NCBI GenBank assembly: GCA_003500135.1
Contig: DNTA01000261.1
Coordinates: 1-28,269 of the forward strand
Length of the DNA stretch: 28,269 nt
Source: Cytophagales bacterium
Lineage (GTDB): Bacteria > Bacteroidota > Bacteroidia > Cytophagales > Cyclobacteriaceae
Direction of reading: 5' to 3'
Shown here: positions 9,869 through 20,666 of the stretch, piece by piece
How positions within the stretch are numbered: position 1 is the first letter of the stretch
Layout of the letters: each line of letters opens with the position of its first letter
The notes under the pieces: model-generated
Database searches by the model: none
What the model was told of the DNA's origin: nothing
The model's input: only the letters and a program-made list of their open reading frames with translations
Position numbers and translations under genes: made by a program

Positions 9869-10083
9869 ATGACTGCAAATAAAGCGGGTTCTTCTAAATT
9901 TTACAATGAAAAGCTGTTCTACCCCCTATAATATCCGATAATTAAGGAGAAAGCGATTAGTTGACTATTCCACATAATTGAAATAGATGAAATATTATTC
10001 ACAATTTGACGTTTTATTTTCGTTTCAATTAAACATTATCTTCCAAAAGTGGTCTAACTTTTATAAATTACCATGTGATATTT

Positions 10084-11172
10084 ATGATGATGGAACTGGT
10101 GCGTGGAATCAAATACTACATTTTTAGGGTTGCCTATATCATGGTAGCGCTGTTCGCAGTGTCTTGCGATGAAGAAGATTTCGAGCCGGGAGACCTCATG
10201 TTAAGAAATCTAACTCAGGAAGAACAGCAACTCATCAATGCCTCCAATCAATACGCCATAGACCTTCTGGCCCTTCAGGCACAAAGCCGCAGCCAGGCTG
10301 TTTTTTCACCACTCGGAATAGGCATGAGCCTGAGTTTGTTTCAAAATGCGGCCAATGGAGACCAAAGACGGGCAATAGGAAATGAACTGGGAACACAAAT
10401 CCCTCCTTACAAACTCAACAAATCCTTCTACAAGCTGCTTACCATGATCGATGCAGTGGGTGATGACCGTAATATGTTCCTCAGAAATTCTATCTGGCAT
10501 CGCAATGTAATGGATCTCGATCCTGTTTTTGAAAGTGTCGCCATGGCATACTATCAAACAGAAGTATATCCTATTGATTTCAAAAGGGAAAAATCCAATA
10601 GCAAAGTAAAAGAATGGGTTTATCTGAATTCGGATGGAAAAATGGAAAGCGCTTCCGATTTCAGCATCACTGATGATCTTCGGTTTGTTTCGATTATGAG
10701 TTTGGAATCAGGGATTGAAACTTCCCGCATGAAATATTTTTCTGATGAAAAAGTACAATACTGGGAAGCGCCTTTGACCATCGGGCCGGTATCCATTCAG
10801 GTAATTCTTCCTAATGAGCCTCTGAGTGAAGCGTCTGAAGATATGCACCTGGGACTGATGGAGTTCTACCACAAAAAAGCGCTTCCCGCTAAATCCGGTT
10901 TTCCTGTTCAGCAACTTCAGTTTTCCGACAATGTAGAAGTAAGCCAGTTTTTCAAATTGAAACAGGATAATAATATTTTGCTCGAGCGCCTTTTTGCAAA
11001 ACCTTCAGATATTGATAAAATAAAAATAGAACAAAAACTTCAAATCAAACTTGGCGCCTCAACCCCGGTAAATATAGATTTTAACATTCCGAATAACACT
11101 TCAGGATTATTCTTTATCACTGATAATCACACCAGAAGTATTCTGTTTTGCGGAATATTTAATGGCAATTGA
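10084..11172 (+). CDS. serpin-like lipoprotein, divergent, with short reactive-centre loop
   Basis: About 362 aa. The hydrophobic leader ends in FAVSC, giving a lipidation Cys28. The body follows the serpin fold: NQYAIDLLALQAQ, VFSPLGIGMSLSLFQNAANG (the usual SPxSi..aL...GA.G block), FLRNSIWHRN...LDPVFE and KVKEWVYLNSDGKM, with the C-terminal signature GLFFITDNHTRSILFCGIF. Two things are odd. The hinge/reactive-centre segment, where inhibitory serpins carry a Glu-rich, Ala-rich stretch, reads IKIEQKLQIKLGASTPVNID and is roughly 15 residues short. The central asparagine-alanine-yF block is also degenerate. It is therefore probably non-inhibitory (inference). The start is one of three adjacent ATGs (10084, 10087, 10090); a GTG at 10075 is less likely. 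It stands alone between divergent plsC and the leu leader. Confidence 0.75.
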   Translation: MMMELVRGIKYYIFRVAYIMVALFAVSCDEEDFEPGDLMLRNLTQEEQQLINASNQYAIDLLALQAQSRSQAVFSPLGIGMSLSLFQNAANGDQRRAIGNELGTQIPPYKLNKSFYKLLTMIDAVGDDRNMFLRNSIWHRNVMDLDPVFESVAMAYYQTEVYPIDFKREKSNSKVKEWVYLNSDGKMESASDFSITDDLRFVSIMSLESGIETSRMKYFSDEKVQYWEAPLTIGPVSIQVILPNEPLSEASEDMHLGLMEFYHKKALPAKSGFPVQQLQFSDNVEVSQFFKLKQDNNILLERLFAKPSDIDKIKIEQKLQIKLGASTPVNIDFNIPNNTSGLFFITDNHTRSILFCGIFNGN

Positions 11173-11234: not shown

Positions 11235-11271
11235 TATCCATTAATCAAATTTGAAATTTTACATTATTACA

Positions 11272-11331
11272 TTGAATAAGCGCTACTCACTCAGCCTGAA
11301 CTTACTTGCACTGCTGCTTGACATGCTGTAG
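11272..11331 (+). CDS. leucine-rich leader peptide of leuA (attenuator peptide)
   Basis: A 19-codon ORF ending in TAG, about 80 bp upstream of leuA, encodes MNKRYSLSLNLLALLLDML if its TTG start is used. Eight of the 18 codons after the start are leucine (CTC, CTG, TTA, CTT, CTG, CTG, CTT, CTG), including L-L-A-L-L-L. This is the hallmark of a leucine attenuation peptide like enterobacterial leuL. No ATG is available in frame before the leucines; TTG at 11272 or TTG at 11251 could start it. The stop lies directly before an antiterminator arm and 35 bp before an intrinsic terminator, which gives the geometry needed for ribosome-coupled control. The peptide itself probably has no other role. Confidence 0.7.
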   Translation: MNKRYSLSLNLLALLLDML

Positions 11332-11398
11332 CGCCGGTTGGGTACTGCTTATATAAAATTATTTGGGCCATTCCCAACCTGGTGAATGGTCTTTTTTT
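11280..11398 (+). promoter_or_regulatory. leucine transcription attenuator of leuA
   Basis: Three competing pairings can be drawn. (1) GCGCTAC (11280-11286) with GTAGCGC (11328-11334), a 7-bp pairing spanning the Leu codons. (2) Antiterminator: CCGGTTGGG (11334-11342) with CCCAACC-T-GG (11373-11382), nine pairs with one bulged T. (3) Terminator hairpin 11366-11391. Pairing 2 occupies the loop and the last base of the 5' arm of the terminator, so 2 and 3 exclude each other. A ribosome that reaches the leader stop (11329-11331) would cover 11334-11342 and allow termination. A ribosome stalled on Leu codons leaves that arm free, so the antiterminator forms. The model comes from enterobacterial leu/his/trp operons; its operation here is inferred. 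Confidence 0.65.
11366..11398 (+). terminator. intrinsic terminator of the leu attenuator
   Basis: GGCCATTC (11366-11373) pairs with GAATGGTC (11384-11391; one G-U) around a 10-nt loop, followed by seven T residues (11392-11398). It ends 12 bp before the leuA ATG at 11411, so it can only act as a conditional terminator of leuA. Confidence 0.8.
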
Positions 11399-11410
11399 GT
11401 GGTAAACAAC

Positions 11411-12571
11411 ATGGATATGGACAAGGTATTTATTTTTGACACAACATTGCGTGATGGCGAGCAGGTGCCGGGCTGTCAGTTGAACACTGAAGAAAAAATT
11501 GAAGTGGCAAAGGCGCTGGAAGGTCTCGGTGTGGATATAATTGAAGCCGGTTTTCCCGTTTCCAGCCCGGGCGACTTTAAGTCTGTCGTGGAAATCTCCA
11601 AAGCGGTACGCGAACCTGTGATCTGTGGCCTGACCAGAGCAGTGGAAAAAGACATCACCGTGGCAGCGGAAGCACTTCAATATGCGAAAAGAAAGCGTAT
11701 CCATACCGGTATTGGCGCCTCGGATCTCCACATTTTCACTAAGCTTCGTTCCACCCGGGACAAAGTGCTCGAAAGAGGGGTGGAGGCCGTAAAGCTTGCG
11801 AAAAAGTATGTGGAAGATGTTGAGTTTTATGCTGAAGACGCCGGTCGCGCAGATTTGGATTATCTTGTTCAATTGGTCACCGCCGTAATAAAAGCAGGCG
11901 CTACCGTTGTAAATATTCCTGATACAACCGGTTACAACCTGCCTTGGGTATTTGGCGAGAAGATCAAATACCTGAAAGAAAATGTGCCTAACTTCGATAA
12001 TGCCATTATATCCGTTCACTGCCACAATGACCTTGGTTTGGCGACCGCCAACACCATCTCTGGTTTGGCCAATGGCGCCCGGCAGGCAGAAGTGACCCTT
12101 AACGGTGTAGGGGAACGTGCGGGCAATACCTCGCTTGAGGAAACGGTCATGATCATGAAAAGCCACAAGCGCCTGGGCCTCGATACCGGAATTGATACAA
12201 AGAAATTAAAACCCACCAGCGAATTGGTGTCATCATTGATGCGTATGCCGGTACAGGCCAATAAAGCGATTGTGGGTAAAAATGCCTTTGCGCACTCATC
12301 AGGCATCCACCAGGATGGTTTCCTGAAGAACCGGGAAAATTATGAAGTGATCAAACCGGAAGATGTGGGTGTGGACCAGTCCGAGATCGTGCTCACTGCA
12401 AGAAGTGGCAAGCACGCTTTGAAATACCGGTTACTGAATATAGGTTATGAAATCAAACCCGAACAACTGCCCGAAGTGTACGAGAAATTCCTGGAACTGG
12501 CAGATGTGAAAAGACAGATCGATGATAAAGACCTGCGCACAATGATGGAAAAAGAGTTTGTTTATAAATAG
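11411..12571 (+). CDS. leuA: 2-isopropylmalate synthase lacking the leucine-regulatory domain
   Basis: First committed enzyme of leucine synthesis: acetyl-CoA plus 2-oxoisovalerate gives 2-isopropylmalate. The 386 aa hold a DRE-TIM barrel with [13 protein letters not shown] (9-21), the metal-ligand block SVHCHND (201-207), [14 protein letters not shown] (231-244) and the subdomain block [12 protein letters not shown] (292-303). The family of about 510 aa ends in a leucine-binding regulatory domain. That domain is absent here, as in the short LeuA typical of Bacteroidota, so allosteric feedback by leucine is not expected. The ATG at 11411 is chosen because earlier in-frame codons lie inside the attenuator terminator. 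A related DRE-TIM synthase (homocitrate or citramalate) is possible, but the leucine leader strongly favours LeuA. leuB, leuC and leuD are not in the window. Confidence 0.93.
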
Positions 12572-16069: not shown

Positions 16070-17209
16070 TTATAAAGTGCCTCTTAATTCCTGCTCGCGT
16101 TCAATAGCTTCAAACAATGCTTTGAAATTTCCTTTACCGAAAGATTTGGCGCCTTTGCGTTGAATGATCTCAAAAAACATTGTCGGACGAGGATTGACGG
16201 GCTTGGTGAAGATCTGTAAAAGATAACCTTCATCATCACGATCAATCAATATGCCGAGCTCTTTTAAGGGTTTCAGGTCTTCGTCAATCTCGCCGACGCG
16301 ATCCAGTACATCTTCATAGTATGTGTCGGGAACATAGAGAAAGTCAACTCCTCTGTCGCGAAGTGCCATCACTGTTTCAATGATATTGTCGGTTGCCACA
16401 GCAATATGCTGAACACCGGCGCCTTCATAAAAATCGAGGTACTCCTCAATCTGCGACTTTTTCTTTCCTTCGGCCGGCTCGTTGATCGGGAATTTGATGC
16501 GGCCATTACCATTACTCATCACCTTACTCATTAGTGCCGTATAATCCGTCGAGATCTCTTTGTCATCAAAGGAGATCAATTGGGTAAAGCCCATCACTTC
16601 GGCATAGAATTTCACCCAGGTATTCATTTCATTCCAGCCTACATTTCCCACCATGTGGTCGATGTATTTCAAACCGATAGGGGTAGGGTTGTAGTGGCTT
16701 TCCCATTTTTGGTAACCGGGAAGAAAGATACCATTGTAGTTTTTGCGTTCTACGAAAATGTGCACCGTTTCGCCATAGGTATGAATACCCGACATTCTCA
16801 CTTCGCCCAGATCATCGCTTAAGGTTTTGGGTTCAAAATACGGCCTGGCGCCCCTTTTGGTAGTTTCATCAAAGGCGCTGAAGGCATCGTCGACGAAAAG
16901 GGCCACAGCTTTTACCCCATCGCCATGCTTGTCAATATGTTTACCAATATCGGCGCCCGATTTCAATGGACTGGTCAGTACCAGACGTATTTTATCCTGT
17001 ATCAACACATAAGATTCACGGTCTTTAACCCCGGTTGATAATCCGGCATACGCCAGCGACTGAAAACCAAAGGCCGTTTTGTAGAAATGTGCTGCCTGCT
17101 TGGCATTGCCCACATACAATTCAATATAATCAGTGCCATTGATCGGCAGAAAGTCTTCCGCATCGGGAAATACTTTTTCAATTGGGGTAGTGTCGTTTTT
17201 AGTTTCCAT
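16070..17209 (-). CDS. hpd: 4-hydroxyphenylpyruvate dioxygenase
   Basis: Fe(II)-dependent dioxygenase that converts 4-hydroxyphenylpyruvate to homogentisate, the second step of tyrosine degradation. The 379 aa form two vicinal-oxygen-chelate halves: N-terminal YIELYVGNAKQAAHFYKTAF and C-terminal YIDHMVGNVGWNEMNTWVKFY. The three metal ligands are His185 (IDHMVGNV), His268 (GVQHIAVAT) and Glu347 (MFFEIIQR). The C-terminal product/substrate gate helix is present (GAKSFGKGNFKALFEAIEREQ). It is the last gene of the fahA-reductase-hmgA-hpd operon: its ATG lies 12 bp after the hmgA stop, and a strong terminator follows. Length and residues are normal for the bacterial/eukaryotic long type. Confidence 0.97.
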   Translation of the reverse strand: METKNDTTPIEKVFPDAEDFLPINGTDYIELYVGNAKQAAHFYKTAFGFQSLAYAGLSTGVKDRESYVLIQDKIRLVLTSPLKSGADIGKHIDKHGDGVKAVALFVDDAFSAFDETTKRGARPYFEPKTLSDDLGEVRMSGIHTYGETVHIFVERKNYNGIFLPGYQKWESHYNPTPIGLKYIDHMVGNVGWNEMNTWVKFYAEVMGFTQLISFDDKEISTDYTALMSKVMSNGNGRIKFPINEPAEGKKKSQIEEYLDFYEGAGVQHIAVATDNIIETVMALRDRGVDFLYVPDTYYEDVLDRVGEIDEDLKPLKELGILIDRDDEGYLLQIFTKPVNPRPTMFFEIIQRKGAKSFGKGNFKALFEAIEREQELRGTL

Positions 17210-17221
17210 ATGTAAATGCTT

Positions 17222-18382
17222 TTAGTCTTCTAACCATGATAAATAATACTTGCCGTCATCGATATCCATAGCCTGCATCGTAAGCCAAAGCGGCTTGAAG
17301 GTATCGATCATAACCGCCAGTTCTGCGGTTTCCTTTTTGCCCAAACTTCGCTCCATGGCGCCAGGGTGCGGTCCGTGGGGAATACCTGCCGGGTGCAAGG
17401 TGAATTGGCCCTTATCGATATCATTTCGGCTCATAAAATCCCCGTCTACATAATACAACACTTCGTCTGAGTCAATGTTGCTATGGTTGTAGGGTGCCGG
17501 AACCGACTCGGGATGGTAGTCGTACAACCTCGGGCAGAAGCTGCAAACCACATAATTATGCCCTTCAAAATTTTGGTGAACCGGTGGAGGCTGGTGTATT
17601 CGTCCTGTGATCGGTTCGAAATCATGTATGGAGAAGGCATAAGGGTAGTTATAGCCATCCCAACCCACCACATCAAAAGGATGTGACGCATAGGTGATCT
17701 CATGCAGCTTGTTTTCTTTCTTCACCCTGATCAGGAAGTCACCTTTTTCATCAATAGTCCGAAGGTTTTCCGGCAGCTTAATATCGCGTTCGCAAAATGG
17801 CGAGTGCTCCAGTAGTTGCCCGAAGTTGTTGCGATACCTTTTGGGAAAATAGATCGGTGAAAATGACTCGAGAATGAGCAGCCGGTTATCCGGTGTGTCA
17901 AACTCCATCTGGTAGATCATACCTCTTGGAATAACGAGATAATCACCATATTCGAATGGAATTTCCCCCAGGAAGGTTTTGAGTTTTCCGGCGCCCTGAT
18001 GCACAAAGATCAATTCATCCGCATGGCCGTTTTTGTAAAAGTAGTCTTTCATCGATTCCTTTGGTGCCGCAACGTTTATGATCACATCGTTATTGAGCAT
18101 TAAAGGTGTACGGCTTTCCAGAAAATCGTTTTTTGGGGGCACATCGAAGCCTACCAGTCTTCTGGGCGTGATATTTTTATTGTCCACCACTTCAGGCGTC
18201 ATATCTATTGGCTCCCTGATCGACCTGATCATGGTTGGCCGGTGAATATGATACAAAAGCGATGACATGCCGCTAAACCCTTCAGTGCCAAACAACTGCT
18301 CGTAATAGTAGCCGCCGTCCGGCTTCTTGAAGGTGGTATGCCGCTTTTGGGGTATCTTTCCTAGCTTATGATATATTGGCAT
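17222..18382 (-). CDS. hmgA: homogentisate 1,2-dioxygenase
   Basis: Opens the ring of homogentisate to give maleylacetoacetate, using Fe(II) in a cupin fold. The 386 aa are shorter than the 430-440 aa of animal and proteobacterial enzymes but typical for Bacteroidota. Recognisable blocks: YHKLGKIPQKRHTTF at the N-terminus, LIFVHQGAGKLKTFLGEIPF with IPRGMIYQM, VGWDGYNYPYAFSIHDFEPI, and the metal centre His300 and Glu307 (NHSNIDSDEV) with His336 (PAGIPHGPHPG). Assignment of the exact ligands is by analogy with the human enzyme. It lies 30 bp after the flavin reductase gene and 12 bp before hpd in the same operon. Confidence 0.95.
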   Translation of the reverse strand: MPIYHKLGKIPQKRHTTFKKPDGGYYYEQLFGTEGFSGMSSLLYHIHRPTMIRSIREPIDMTPEVVDNKNITPRRLVGFDVPPKNDFLESRTPLMLNNDVIINVAAPKESMKDYFYKNGHADELIFVHQGAGKLKTFLGEIPFEYGDYLVIPRGMIYQMEFDTPDNRLLILESFSPIYFPKRYRNNFGQLLEHSPFCERDIKLPENLRTIDEKGDFLIRVKKENKLHEITYASHPFDVVGWDGYNYPYAFSIHDFEPITGRIHQPPPVHQNFEGHNYVVCSFCPRLYDYHPESVPAPYNHSNIDSDEVLYYVDGDFMSRNDIDKGQFTLHPAGIPHGPHPGAMERSLGKKETAELAVMIDTFKPLWLTMQAMDIDDGKYYLSWLED

Positions 18383-18412
18383 TTCTTTTTTGGGTTATGT
18401 TTTCTTTAACGT

Positions 18413-19321
18413 TTACGAAAACGTAGCGTTTTGCAATAAAACTTTCCAGGCATCTTCCGTCTGGTTTTTGTCCAGCAGATTAGCTGCCAAACGGTGCAAG
18501 GCTTCCTGACGCTCTTCTTCAGAAAGGTTTCTATCGTCCAGTATGTTGAGCACCTCCGGCTTTTGCTGCCAGGCGTTTATTTCCTCCGCTTCCGGAAACT
18601 TCTCGACATTCCCCAGTCGCCCAAGTTGATTGCCCGTCAGTATTTTACTTAAACGGATATGCCCCGGGATTTGATCCACGCCTATGCCTTTTTGCCTCAG
18701 TGGCTTGGGTATGGTAAAAAGCGCCTCACCATTGGCCCGCACATACCAGTCGCCACCCATTCTACCGATAGCATCGAGCTTATAGGGGTCGATCTTTTTG
18801 TTTTCATCGAGTATGCGTTCATTGACATGTACGAGCAGCACGCGACAGAAAATCAGGTTGCCGGCGCCACCCTGGTCGCCGAGTTTGACCACTCGTTCCA
18901 CTAGGCATTCCATAGATACCGGTGCTTCCAGAACTCTTGGCGGGCTTACCTTCTTACTTTTTGCTTCGGTAAAGCCTGCTTTTACAAACTCATTTACGCC
19001 TTTATCATATTCGGTCGAAGCGAGCGACATCTGTTCAGCCATGCTGTAGTCGCAAATATTGATCACTACTTCCGGCAGCTCTTCCACGTTCTCCAGGGTG
19101 TGCTTCGTGGTATTGTCGCGCACCCTTCTCGCTGGCGAAAAGACCAGCATAGGCGGATTGGCACTGAAGGCGTTGAAAAAACTATATGGGCTCAGGTTTA
19201 CCCGGCCCGACTTATCGATTGTGCTGGCAAAAGCTATCGGGCGGGGCGCTACGGCGCCCAGCAGATAACCATGTAGCTCAGGAGTCGAAACTTTTTGAGG
19301 GTCAACGGTTAAATATCCCAT
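18413..19321 (-). CDS. flavin reductase family (FMN-binding split-barrel) protein in the tyrosine operon
   Basis: 302-aa protein of the flavin-reductase-like FMN-binding split-barrel family. The first 200 residues show the family blocks HGYLLGAVAPRPIAFASTID, NLSPYSFFNAFSANPPMLVF, RDNTTKHTLENVEELPEVVI and SMECLVERVVKLGDQG. About 100 residues follow with no recognised domain (from PLRQKGIGVDQIPGHIRLSK to the end). Its ATG follows the fahA stop codon with no gap, so translation is coupled and a role in homogentisate breakdown is likely. It is not a known enzyme of the textbook pathway. Possible roles are supply of reduced flavin to a monooxygenase, or an unrecognised step such as handling quinones formed from homogentisate. 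Family sure, role unknown. Confidence 0.85.
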   Translation of the reverse strand: MGYLTVDPQKVSTPELHGYLLGAVAPRPIAFASTIDKSGRVNLSPYSFFNAFSANPPMLVFSPARRVRDNTTKHTLENVEELPEVVINICDYSMAEQMSLASTEYDKGVNEFVKAGFTEAKSKKVSPPRVLEAPVSMECLVERVVKLGDQGGAGNLIFCRVLLVHVNERILDENKKIDPYKLDAIGRMGGDWYVRANGEALFTIPKPLRQKGIGVDQIPGHIRLSKILTGNQLGRLGNVEKFPEAEEINAWQQKPEVLNILDDRNLSEEERQEALHRLAANLLDKNQTEDAWKVLLQNATFS

Positions 19322-20602
19322 CTATCTAGCAGGTAATATCTTTGAACTTACTTCTCCAAATCCGATGCGCACGCCATTTCCTTCGGCATATGCACGCATG
19401 GTTACCGTATCGCCATCCAGCAGAAATTTTCGTTCCGAGCCATCGTCAAGCTTGAGCGGTTTCGTGCCTTTCCAGGCCAGTTCCAGCATGGAACCGAAAG
19501 ATTTCGGATCACTGCCGCTTATGGTGCCCGAAGCATACATATCGCCAATGCCCAGGTTACAACCATTTACCGTGTGGTGTGCCAGCTGCTGATTGACGTT
19601 CCAGTACAAGTATTTAAAGTTCGAATGGCATATTTTGTTTTCATTTCCGCCTTCAGGATGTAAAAACACCTCAAGCTCGATATCAAAAGCTTTTTTGCCT
19701 TCCGTTTTCAAATAAGGTAAAACTTCAGGCTCCTGTTTAGGGCTTTCTGTACGGAAAGGCTCCAAAGCATCCATGGTGACGATCCAGGGCGAAATGGAGG
19801 ATCCGAAGTTTTTACCAAGAAATGGGCCCAAAGGCTGGTATTCCCAGGCTTGTATATCACGTGCCGACCAGTCGTTGAACAATACAAAACCGAATATGTA
19901 TTCTTCAGCTTCTGCCGTGCTCACGCTATTGCCCATCCCGTTTTCCTTGCAGGTAATAAAAGCCATTTCCAGCTCGAAGTCCAGGCGCCTCGACGGGCCA
20001 AAAGAAGGTTGGTCATCCTGAGGGTCTTTATACTGTCCTTTGGGGCGCGTGATTGGCGTACCGGAAGGCACTATGCTGCTTGCCCGGCCATGGTATCCCA
20101 CCGGCAGGTGTCGCCAGTTAGGTAATAATGCATTATTCGGATCGCGGAACATGGCGCCCACATTCGTGGCATGTTCAATACTGGAATAGAAGTCGGTATA
20201 GTCGCGCACAAAAACGGGCATATGCATGGTGACATGATCCATAGGTCGCATAGCTGCCTGTTTCAGTTCTTCATTGTCGCGCAGCTCTGGGTTATCGGCC
20301 AAAAGCAACTGGGAAACCCGGGTACGCACTTTTGAGGCGGCTTGCTTTCCCAAGGCCATGAATGCATTGAGGGTGTCGTAGGCAAAGACATTGTCTTCCG
20401 GCAGGCCCAGTCCGTTTAAATGGCCTTGTTCAAACAGTGCAGCCAGGTCAATCACCTGATCACCAATGGCTACTCCGGCGTGCGGGGCCTTGTATTCGGT
20501 ATTGCTGAAAATACCAAAAGGCAAATTTTGAATAGGGAAATCCGAATTGGGGGGCACATTTACCCACGTAGTCAAATTCGGATCGTTGGGTTGATGGTTC
20601 AT
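19322..20602 (-). CDS. fahA: fumarylacetoacetase
   Basis: Last enzyme of tyrosine degradation; it hydrolyses fumarylacetoacetate to fumarate and acetoacetate. 426 aa from the ATG at 20602. The 6-codon extension starting with TTG at 20620 is less likely. The N-terminal SH3-like domain shows SDFPIQNLPFGIFS. The catalytic domain shows YTDFYSSIEHATNVGAMFRD (Asp137, His144), PVGYHGRASSIVPSGTPI, the metal-binding DFELEMAF (Glu210, Glu212) and FNDWSARDIQAWEYQPLGPF (Asp244), matching the Ca/Mg site and catalytic His of mammalian FAH. It is the first gene of the operon, which has no maleylacetoacetate isomerase gene. The upstream 155 bp carry paired palindromic sites, probably operators. Confidence 0.96.
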   Translation of the reverse strand: MNHQPNDPNLTTWVNVPPNSDFPIQNLPFGIFSNTEYKAPHAGVAIGDQVIDLAALFEQGHLNGLGLPEDNVFAYDTLNAFMALGKQAASKVRTRVSQLLLADNPELRDNEELKQAAMRPMDHVTMHMPVFVRDYTDFYSSIEHATNVGAMFRDPNNALLPNWRHLPVGYHGRASSIVPSGTPITRPKGQYKDPQDDQPSFGPSRRLDFELEMAFITCKENGMGNSVSTAEAEEYIFGFVLFNDWSARDIQAWEYQPLGPFLGKNFGSSISPWIVTMDALEPFRTESPKQEPEVLPYLKTEGKKAFDIELEVFLHPEGGNENKICHSNFKYLYWNVNQQLAHHTVNGCNLGIGDMYASGTISGSDPKSFGSMLELAWKGTKPLKLDDGSERKFLLDGDTVTMRAYAEGNGVRIGFGEVSSKILPAR

Positions 20603-20666
20603 ATGAATACTTTTCTCCAAACTTTAATTCAACATATTAGTGATGTAATTTGTAAAATTAAAAATT

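Follow-up and report, generated by a model that had tools for sequence, protein, structure and literature searches.

The leuA gene of this Cytophagales bacterium is very probably controlled by a ribosome-mediated leader-peptide transcription attenuator that responds to the supply of leucyl-tRNA. This reading of the sequence and of folding models is supported by the anatomy of the region, by its predicted folding, by the recurrence of the arrangement in relatives, and by leader codons that match the product of the leu, ilv, and trp genes within the same genome. The window, by which we mean the whole 28,269-nucleotide stretch of DNA analyzed, belongs to a draft genome (332 contigs, 94% complete, 4% contamination).

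A leucine-rich leader and alternative hairpins upstream of leuA

Direct reading of positions 11272 to 11410 gives, on the forward strand, a leader, an antiterminator arm, and a terminator, followed by the leuA ATG at 11411. The predicted leader ORF (MNKRYSLSLNLLALLLDML; 11272-11331) comprises 19 codons, from a TTG start at 11272 to a TAG stop at 11329-11331. Eight of the 18 codons after the TTG specify Leu, in agreement with the original prediction; these putative control codons (7, 9, 11, 12, 14, 15, 16, and 19, within 11290-11328) read CTC, CTG, TTA, CTT, CTG, CTG, CTT, and CTG. At the Leu frequency of the window (9.3%), the chance of at least eight Leu in 18 codons is 1e-4, uncorrected for multiple testing, and the top mini-ORF Leu count of the region has a p value of 0.025 against the shuffled region. 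By eye, the TTG stands where the leader of the nearest relative (G087, locus L049) has its ATG, and we infer from the sequence that translation starts at this TTG. Neither a Shine-Dalgarno site nor a clear promoter was seen by eye for the window leader. Directly upstream of it lies a serpin-like gene (10075-11172, forward strand; Pfam Serpin, E = 3.6e-20), whose best-matching stretch corresponds to the N-terminal part of the profile.

The 5' arm of the putative antiterminator (11332-11342) directly follows the stop codon and can pair with a 3' arm at 11373-11384, which overlaps the left arm and the loop of an intrinsic terminator (11365-11398; hairpin 11365-11392, seven-T run 11392-11398). At the core of this pairing, GGTTGGG at 11336-11342 complements CCCAACC at 11373-11379, inside the terminator hairpin. 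Thus, the parts that had been predicted in order within 140 bp are all there, although the antiterminator is longer than first described. The predicted alternation between antiterminator and terminator likewise stands, but a third pairing had gone unmentioned: in the minimum free energy (MFE) fold, region 1 (11276-11289) pairs with 11339-11352, forming a 1:2 hairpin when the leader is untranslated. The terminator fold of 11344-11400 has a predicted energy of -14.9 kcal/mol, and the antiterminator fold one of -17.6 kcal/mol (11335-11400) or -23.1 kcal/mol (11332-11398). Folded as a whole, the leader adopts the terminator together with the 1:2 hairpin, and the MFE fold also pairs 11398-11405 with 11264-11271. 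The last T of the terminator sits 12 nt before the leuA ATG; because this gap is too small for a promoter, transcription of leuA must cross the terminator.

With leucine plentiful, the ribosome would reach the TAG at 11329 and cover the arm at 11332-11342, the hairpin at 11365-11392 would form, and transcription would end at the T run before leuA. With charged tRNA-Leu scarce, the ribosome would stall at Leu codons 7 to 16, leaving the arm to pair with 11373-11384, which would block the terminator and allow leuA to be transcribed. If the leader were untranslated, the 1:2 hairpin would hold the arm, making termination the default. Coupling of transcription and translation at the leader, as well as a response of leuA to leucine, is presumed in this scheme.

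A folding model in which the ribosomal A site was set on each codon in turn, and only RNA at least 12 nt downstream could pair, behaves in this way. The modeled probability of the terminator is 0.65 to 0.94 at codons 1 to 6, 0.00 to 0.28 over codons 7 to 16 (about 0.08 at the Leu codons among them), 0.00 at codon 17, 0.17 at codon 18, and 0.99 at codon 19. It reaches 1.00 with the ribosome at the stop codon, bearing out the predicted masking of the antiterminator arm by a terminating ribosome, and is 0.99 without a ribosome. The antiterminator pair 11338-11377 has a probability of 0.72 to 0.998. None of 500 shuffles of 11272-11364 was equally switch-like, their mean terminator probability at the Leu positions being 0.985. 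Fold and script both place a terminator between leader and structural gene; in the model, antiterminator and terminator exclude each other, and a ribosome at the stop masks the antiterminator arm.

Recurrence in relatives

The sample comprised the upstream regions of 214 leuA loci (203 of them distinct in the final 150 nt), drawn from the matches listed for the window's family, its order, and named genomes; the last 40 were hand-picked to cover short LeuAs and a range of genera, which means that frequencies in the sample are not unbiased. By the rule of our script, 45 of the 203 distinct regions among the matches listed have a terminator no more than 140 nt from leuA. The script is incomplete and missed at least one locus, L056 (G100), which has no Leu-rich leader but a terminator hairpin (-18.4) located 32 nt upstream of its long leuA. 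At 44 of the 45 loci, we could name a leader containing two or more Leu (at least three Leu at 39, at least four at 31); the remaining one, L037, was left out of the 44-locus counts. A weak member (L176; two Leu, arm p = 0.57), whose arm was misaligned by MAFFT in alignment A1, was retained in the counts and in the covariation analysis.

Leu is the residue most enriched in the ATG-started mini-ORFs of these regions (mean maximum, 3.51 versus 0.94 in shuffles), followed by Asn (1.44 versus 0.49); with GTG and TTG starts also allowed, the values for Leu are 4.36 and 1.98. For single loci, Leu richness reaches p ≤ 0.05 against their own shuffles in 19/45 (ATG starts) or 8/45 (all starts). Over the 44 loci, 184 of 763 frame-0 codons are Leu, whereas the two alternative frames have 74 and 57, an excess biased upward because the leaders were chosen by their Leu content. 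Sequence flanking the leader stop complements the terminator better than shuffled versions of itself in 28 of the 44 loci at p ≤ 0.05 and in 14 at p ≤ 0.01; the loci are related and therefore do not amount to 44 independent tests. In the equilibrium model, nine of the 44 switch, with a terminator probability below 0.2 at some Leu codon and above 0.8 at the stop. The terminators of most relatives win at equilibrium even with the arm free, and therefore a kinetic, cotranscriptional action of the arm must be assumed for them. T runs recur in relatives, and their distance to leuA, measured to the start of the match, ranges from 22 to 125 nt.

Carriers include the nearest relative G087, Sporocytophaga, and many Spirosomataceae, which ruled out an impression gained from 48 upstream regions that the attenuator was unique to the window's genome. 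The carrier Dyadobacter fermentans (L150) can be cultivated. Among the 55 loci listed from the window's own family, the script found terminators at L001 (the window), L047, and L049 (G087), L056 being a fourth, and only the window and G087 combine a terminator with a Leu-rich leader. The original prediction had named relatives lacking the Leu codons or the alternative pairings as evidence against it, and to this extent such relatives exist. A covariance model (R1) run on 117 relatives singled out only the window's genome and G087, both of which are in the model; the remaining matches listed (E ≥ 9.5e-4 per genome) were treated as noise. Similarly, in a DNA search of 390 family genomes, with two candidates scored per genome, the G087 terminator was, besides the window, the only pre-leuA match recognized among the matches listed.

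G087 (CAJXNP010000012.1, uncultured Cytophagales bacterium) encodes a LeuA 81% identical to that of the window, preceded by an ATG-started leader (MNNPLAYLSLFKYSFLLKERNS), GTTGGG, and a terminator; the arm, taken by itself, is short (duplex p = 0.31). Counted per site, amino acid-changing differences between leaders are less frequent than silent differences within each of three sets of close relatives (pN/pS of 0.41, 0.00, and 0.55), as would suit a translated peptide. The Sporocytophaga-like leaders L094, L095, and L173 show silent differences only, and the sole length change among such leaders, in L172, removes exactly one Leu codon, alongside two substitutions.

The alignment with relatives that had been proposed as a check showed recurrence of leader, arm, and terminator but weak formal covariation. 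In A1 (11 sequences), 98.0% of the terminator cells and 93.9% of the antiterminator cells pair, against maxima of 60.6% and 59.1% when slid, and the antiterminator 5' arm reads GUUGGG or a variant of it. Terminator pairs exchange G-C and A-U at two positions, double changes being equalled by 259/500 column shuffles, and one antiterminator pair changed on both sides, equalled by 96/500. Judged from the sequences, conservation more than compensation characterizes this group. By reading, two motif types prevail. The window, G087, and Sporocytophaga with its relatives have GCCATTC with GTTGGG; Dyadobacter, Runella, and their relatives have CCCTTTC with GGGAAAGG or similar. The change of both arms between these types, noted by reading and without a formal test, is the clearer sign of covariation at the sequence level.

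A separate observation made by reading concerns a recurring palindrome around GCGAAATTTCGC in Spirosomataceae-like loci (L200, L208, L213, L226, L227, and L230), where it lies between a TATTTTTG-like promoter element and leuA. It occurs without any leader in L209 and L233 and in a related form in L215 and L232, and may represent an operator or a 5' hairpin. A similar GCGTAATTTCGC was read upstream of ilvD in G046 (L248).

Leaders matched to the product at ilvD and trpE

In the window's genome, an Ile/Val/Leu leader (MLIHKVIVLINILVVVVRDFGR) with a terminator precedes ilvD within approximately 300 nt (L246, contig C121), and a Trp-Trp-Trp leader (MKTKSTYTFFWWWHRAYYRR) with a terminator precedes trpE (L280, contig C76). 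The residue counts are eight Leu and no Ile, Val, or Trp in the leuA leader; three Leu, four Ile, six Val, and no Trp in the ilvD leader; and three Trp and no Leu, Ile, or Val in the trpE leader. G087 and G046 carry similar leaders at both ilvD (L247 and L248) and trpE. In the window's genome and G087, the counts of these four residues fit each product, save for two Leu and two Ile in the G087 trpE leader. By reading, the triple-Trp leader is found in all six trpE regions (L276-L281), with a script terminator in five; that of G417 was missed by the script and is visible by eye. An Ile/Val/Leu leader is present in three of four ilvD regions, the fourth (G522) following closely behind another gene. 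Applied to seven ilv and trp leaders, the equilibrium model brought only G087 ilvD below 0.5, the switching of the own-genome ilv and trp leaders being weak. The match between codons and product at leu, ilv, and trp in one genome, as read from the sequence, is the strongest single argument for control peptides.

No hisG was found in the window's genome. Runs of His codons occur upstream of hisG in G046, G087, and G417 (L271, L272, and L273), and in none of five genomes did the script detect a terminator in the 180 nt before hisG. The leuC and leuD genes lie on a contig other than that of the window, in an operon where they are followed by a citramalate-synthase-like gene that is cut by the contig end (L239, contig C166); by eye, no leader or terminator was seen upstream of leuC.

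LeuA and the allosteric domain

The gene downstream of the putative attenuator (11411-12571, forward strand) encodes 2-isopropylmalate synthase, with 598.6 bits to the NF002086 equivalog (cut-off, 532). Its TIGR00973 score of 560.8 falls under the cut-off of 598.7, profile positions 381-494 at the C-terminal end remaining unmatched. In line with the prediction of a LeuA without leucine-binding domain, the Pfam search found HMGL and HCS_D2 but no LeuA_dimer allosteric domain (PF08502), the hallmark of leucine feedback. This domain is also absent from the LeuAs of L049, L094, and L144, and is present in two long LeuAs of relatives (L088 and L109). Further along the window, the reverse strand carries a tyrosine/homogentisate degradation cluster (16070-20620; 4-hydroxyphenylpyruvate dioxygenase, HmgA-like, flavin reductase-like, and fumarylacetoacetase).

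That attenuation might replace allostery, as had been suggested, agrees with its distribution up to a point. Among 150 distinct full-gene loci from the matches listed, the attenuator occurs at 18 of 71 short and none of 79 long LeuA loci, by a rule (terminator, at least three Leu, arm p ≤ 0.1) that misses G087 itself. However, the majority of short LeuA loci are without an attenuator, the loci are related by descent, and G087 has, besides its short attenuated LeuA, a long one that includes the allosteric domain. In a LeuA tree of 107 rows, 20 labeled carriers (by a looser rule: at least three Leu, arm p ≤ 0.35, short LeuA) are scattered within a mostly nonattenuated short-LeuA background. They fall in three places with noncarriers between them: the window with G087, a Cytophagaceae-like group (f16), and a Spirosomataceae-like group (f11), the family names being those of named records in the same clades. 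A substitution of attenuation for allosteric feedback in short-LeuA lineages is only compatible with these sequence data. In the same tree, the leuA and attenuator of L130 (Flavobacterium sp. SUN052) group with Spirosomataceae; this record may be mislabeled, contaminated, or a transfer.

Alternative explanations

The hairpin could be a plain end-of-gene terminator of the serpin-like gene upstream, with a Leu-rich ORF by chance and leuA regulated otherwise. That gene is indeed codirectional and ends at 11172, the Leu count of the one ORF is only moderately unusual (p = 0.025), and at least one relative (L056) has a terminator close to a long leuA that lacks a Leu-rich leader. However, the 12 nt between T run and ATG leave no space for a promoter, leuA is preceded by the same arrangement in Cytophagaceae and Spirosomataceae, and none of the 500 shuffles was as switch-like, which makes this explanation very improbable. 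We attach equally little weight to a conditional terminator with another sensor, be it a T-box-like tRNA sensor, a riboswitch, or an RNA-binding protein. By itself, the antiterminator/terminator pair suits any of these, but no Rfam family matches at gathering threshold (E ≤ 10 gives only a chance-level RyhB match), and the Leu codons, the position of the stop, and the product-matched codons at ilvD and trpE are best explained by translation.

Finally, the leader might act on translation of leuA, by start-site sequestration or reinitiation, more than on its transcription. The hairpin is near the leuA start, and the pairing of 11398-11405 with 11264-11271 in the MFE fold would suit such a role; nevertheless, seven T right behind a G+C-rich hairpin are the signature of intrinsic termination, and the T runs of relatives vary in their distance to leuA. 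This is the least probable of the three, and ribosome-mediated transcription attenuation remains the reading that we strongly prefer.

Implications and relation to known systems

Ribosome-coupled attenuation is well known in enterobacteria, and Bacteroidota rarely use Shine-Dalgarno initiation. The mechanism proposed here is a textbook E. coli-type switch that is seldom described in Bacteroidota. Attenuation requires the leading ribosome to keep up with RNA polymerase, and therefore recurring, product-matched switches argue, on genomic grounds, for transcription-translation coupling in Bacteroidota, whose leaders are ready reporters for testing it. One may go further and propose that Cytophagales possess a full, independently evolved set of attenuators (leu, ilv, trp, and probably his), with leaders that lack Shine-Dalgarno sites and require tight coupling, and that the switch replaced allostery in short-LeuA lineages; for this combined proposal our confidence is tentative and falls somewhat short of even.

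Work by Lopatovskaya from 2010 may cover Bacteroidota; among the papers listed in our literature searches, none dealt with attenuation of leuA in this phylum. A transcriptome study of Flavobacterium psychrophilum, a member of the same phylum but a flavobacterium and not of the Cytophagales, reports "strong clues" that amino acid operons are preceded by leader-peptide attenuators, and some conserved 5' elements without Rfam matches; the passage on these elements names pheA and hisG and not leuA (PMC9723704). A map of Bacteroides thetaiotaomicron mentions small ORFs reminiscent of leader peptides (PMC7366714), and Korolev (2016) describes many short leader genes in Bacteroidetes, those at short distance being explained by reinitiation (PMC4833913).

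Among the systems closest to the leuA leader are the ilv and trp leaders of its own genome (L246 and L280), which have the same order of leader, terminator, and gene with Ile/Val/Leu and Trp as control codons. A search of the window gave no Rfam match at gathering threshold, including Leu_leader (RF00512), the family of the enterobacterial leu operon attenuator (leuL), and the T-box models, and on this ground a T-box, a riboswitch, or a known Leu leader was ruled out. Nor did Rfam release 15 give a leader match at gathering threshold for any of 12 loci from the leu, ilv, trp, and his pathways, four leuA loci of relatives among them, which points to an annotation gap. The window differs from enterobacterial leuL in the missing Rfam match, the TTG start, the location of leuC and leuD on another contig, and a LeuA without the allosteric domain. 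Nevertheless, the two are alike in their Leu-rich leader peptide, their 1:2, 2:3, and 3:4 pairings, and a terminator before leuA, and we infer that the attenuator of the window arose independently of its enterobacterial counterpart.
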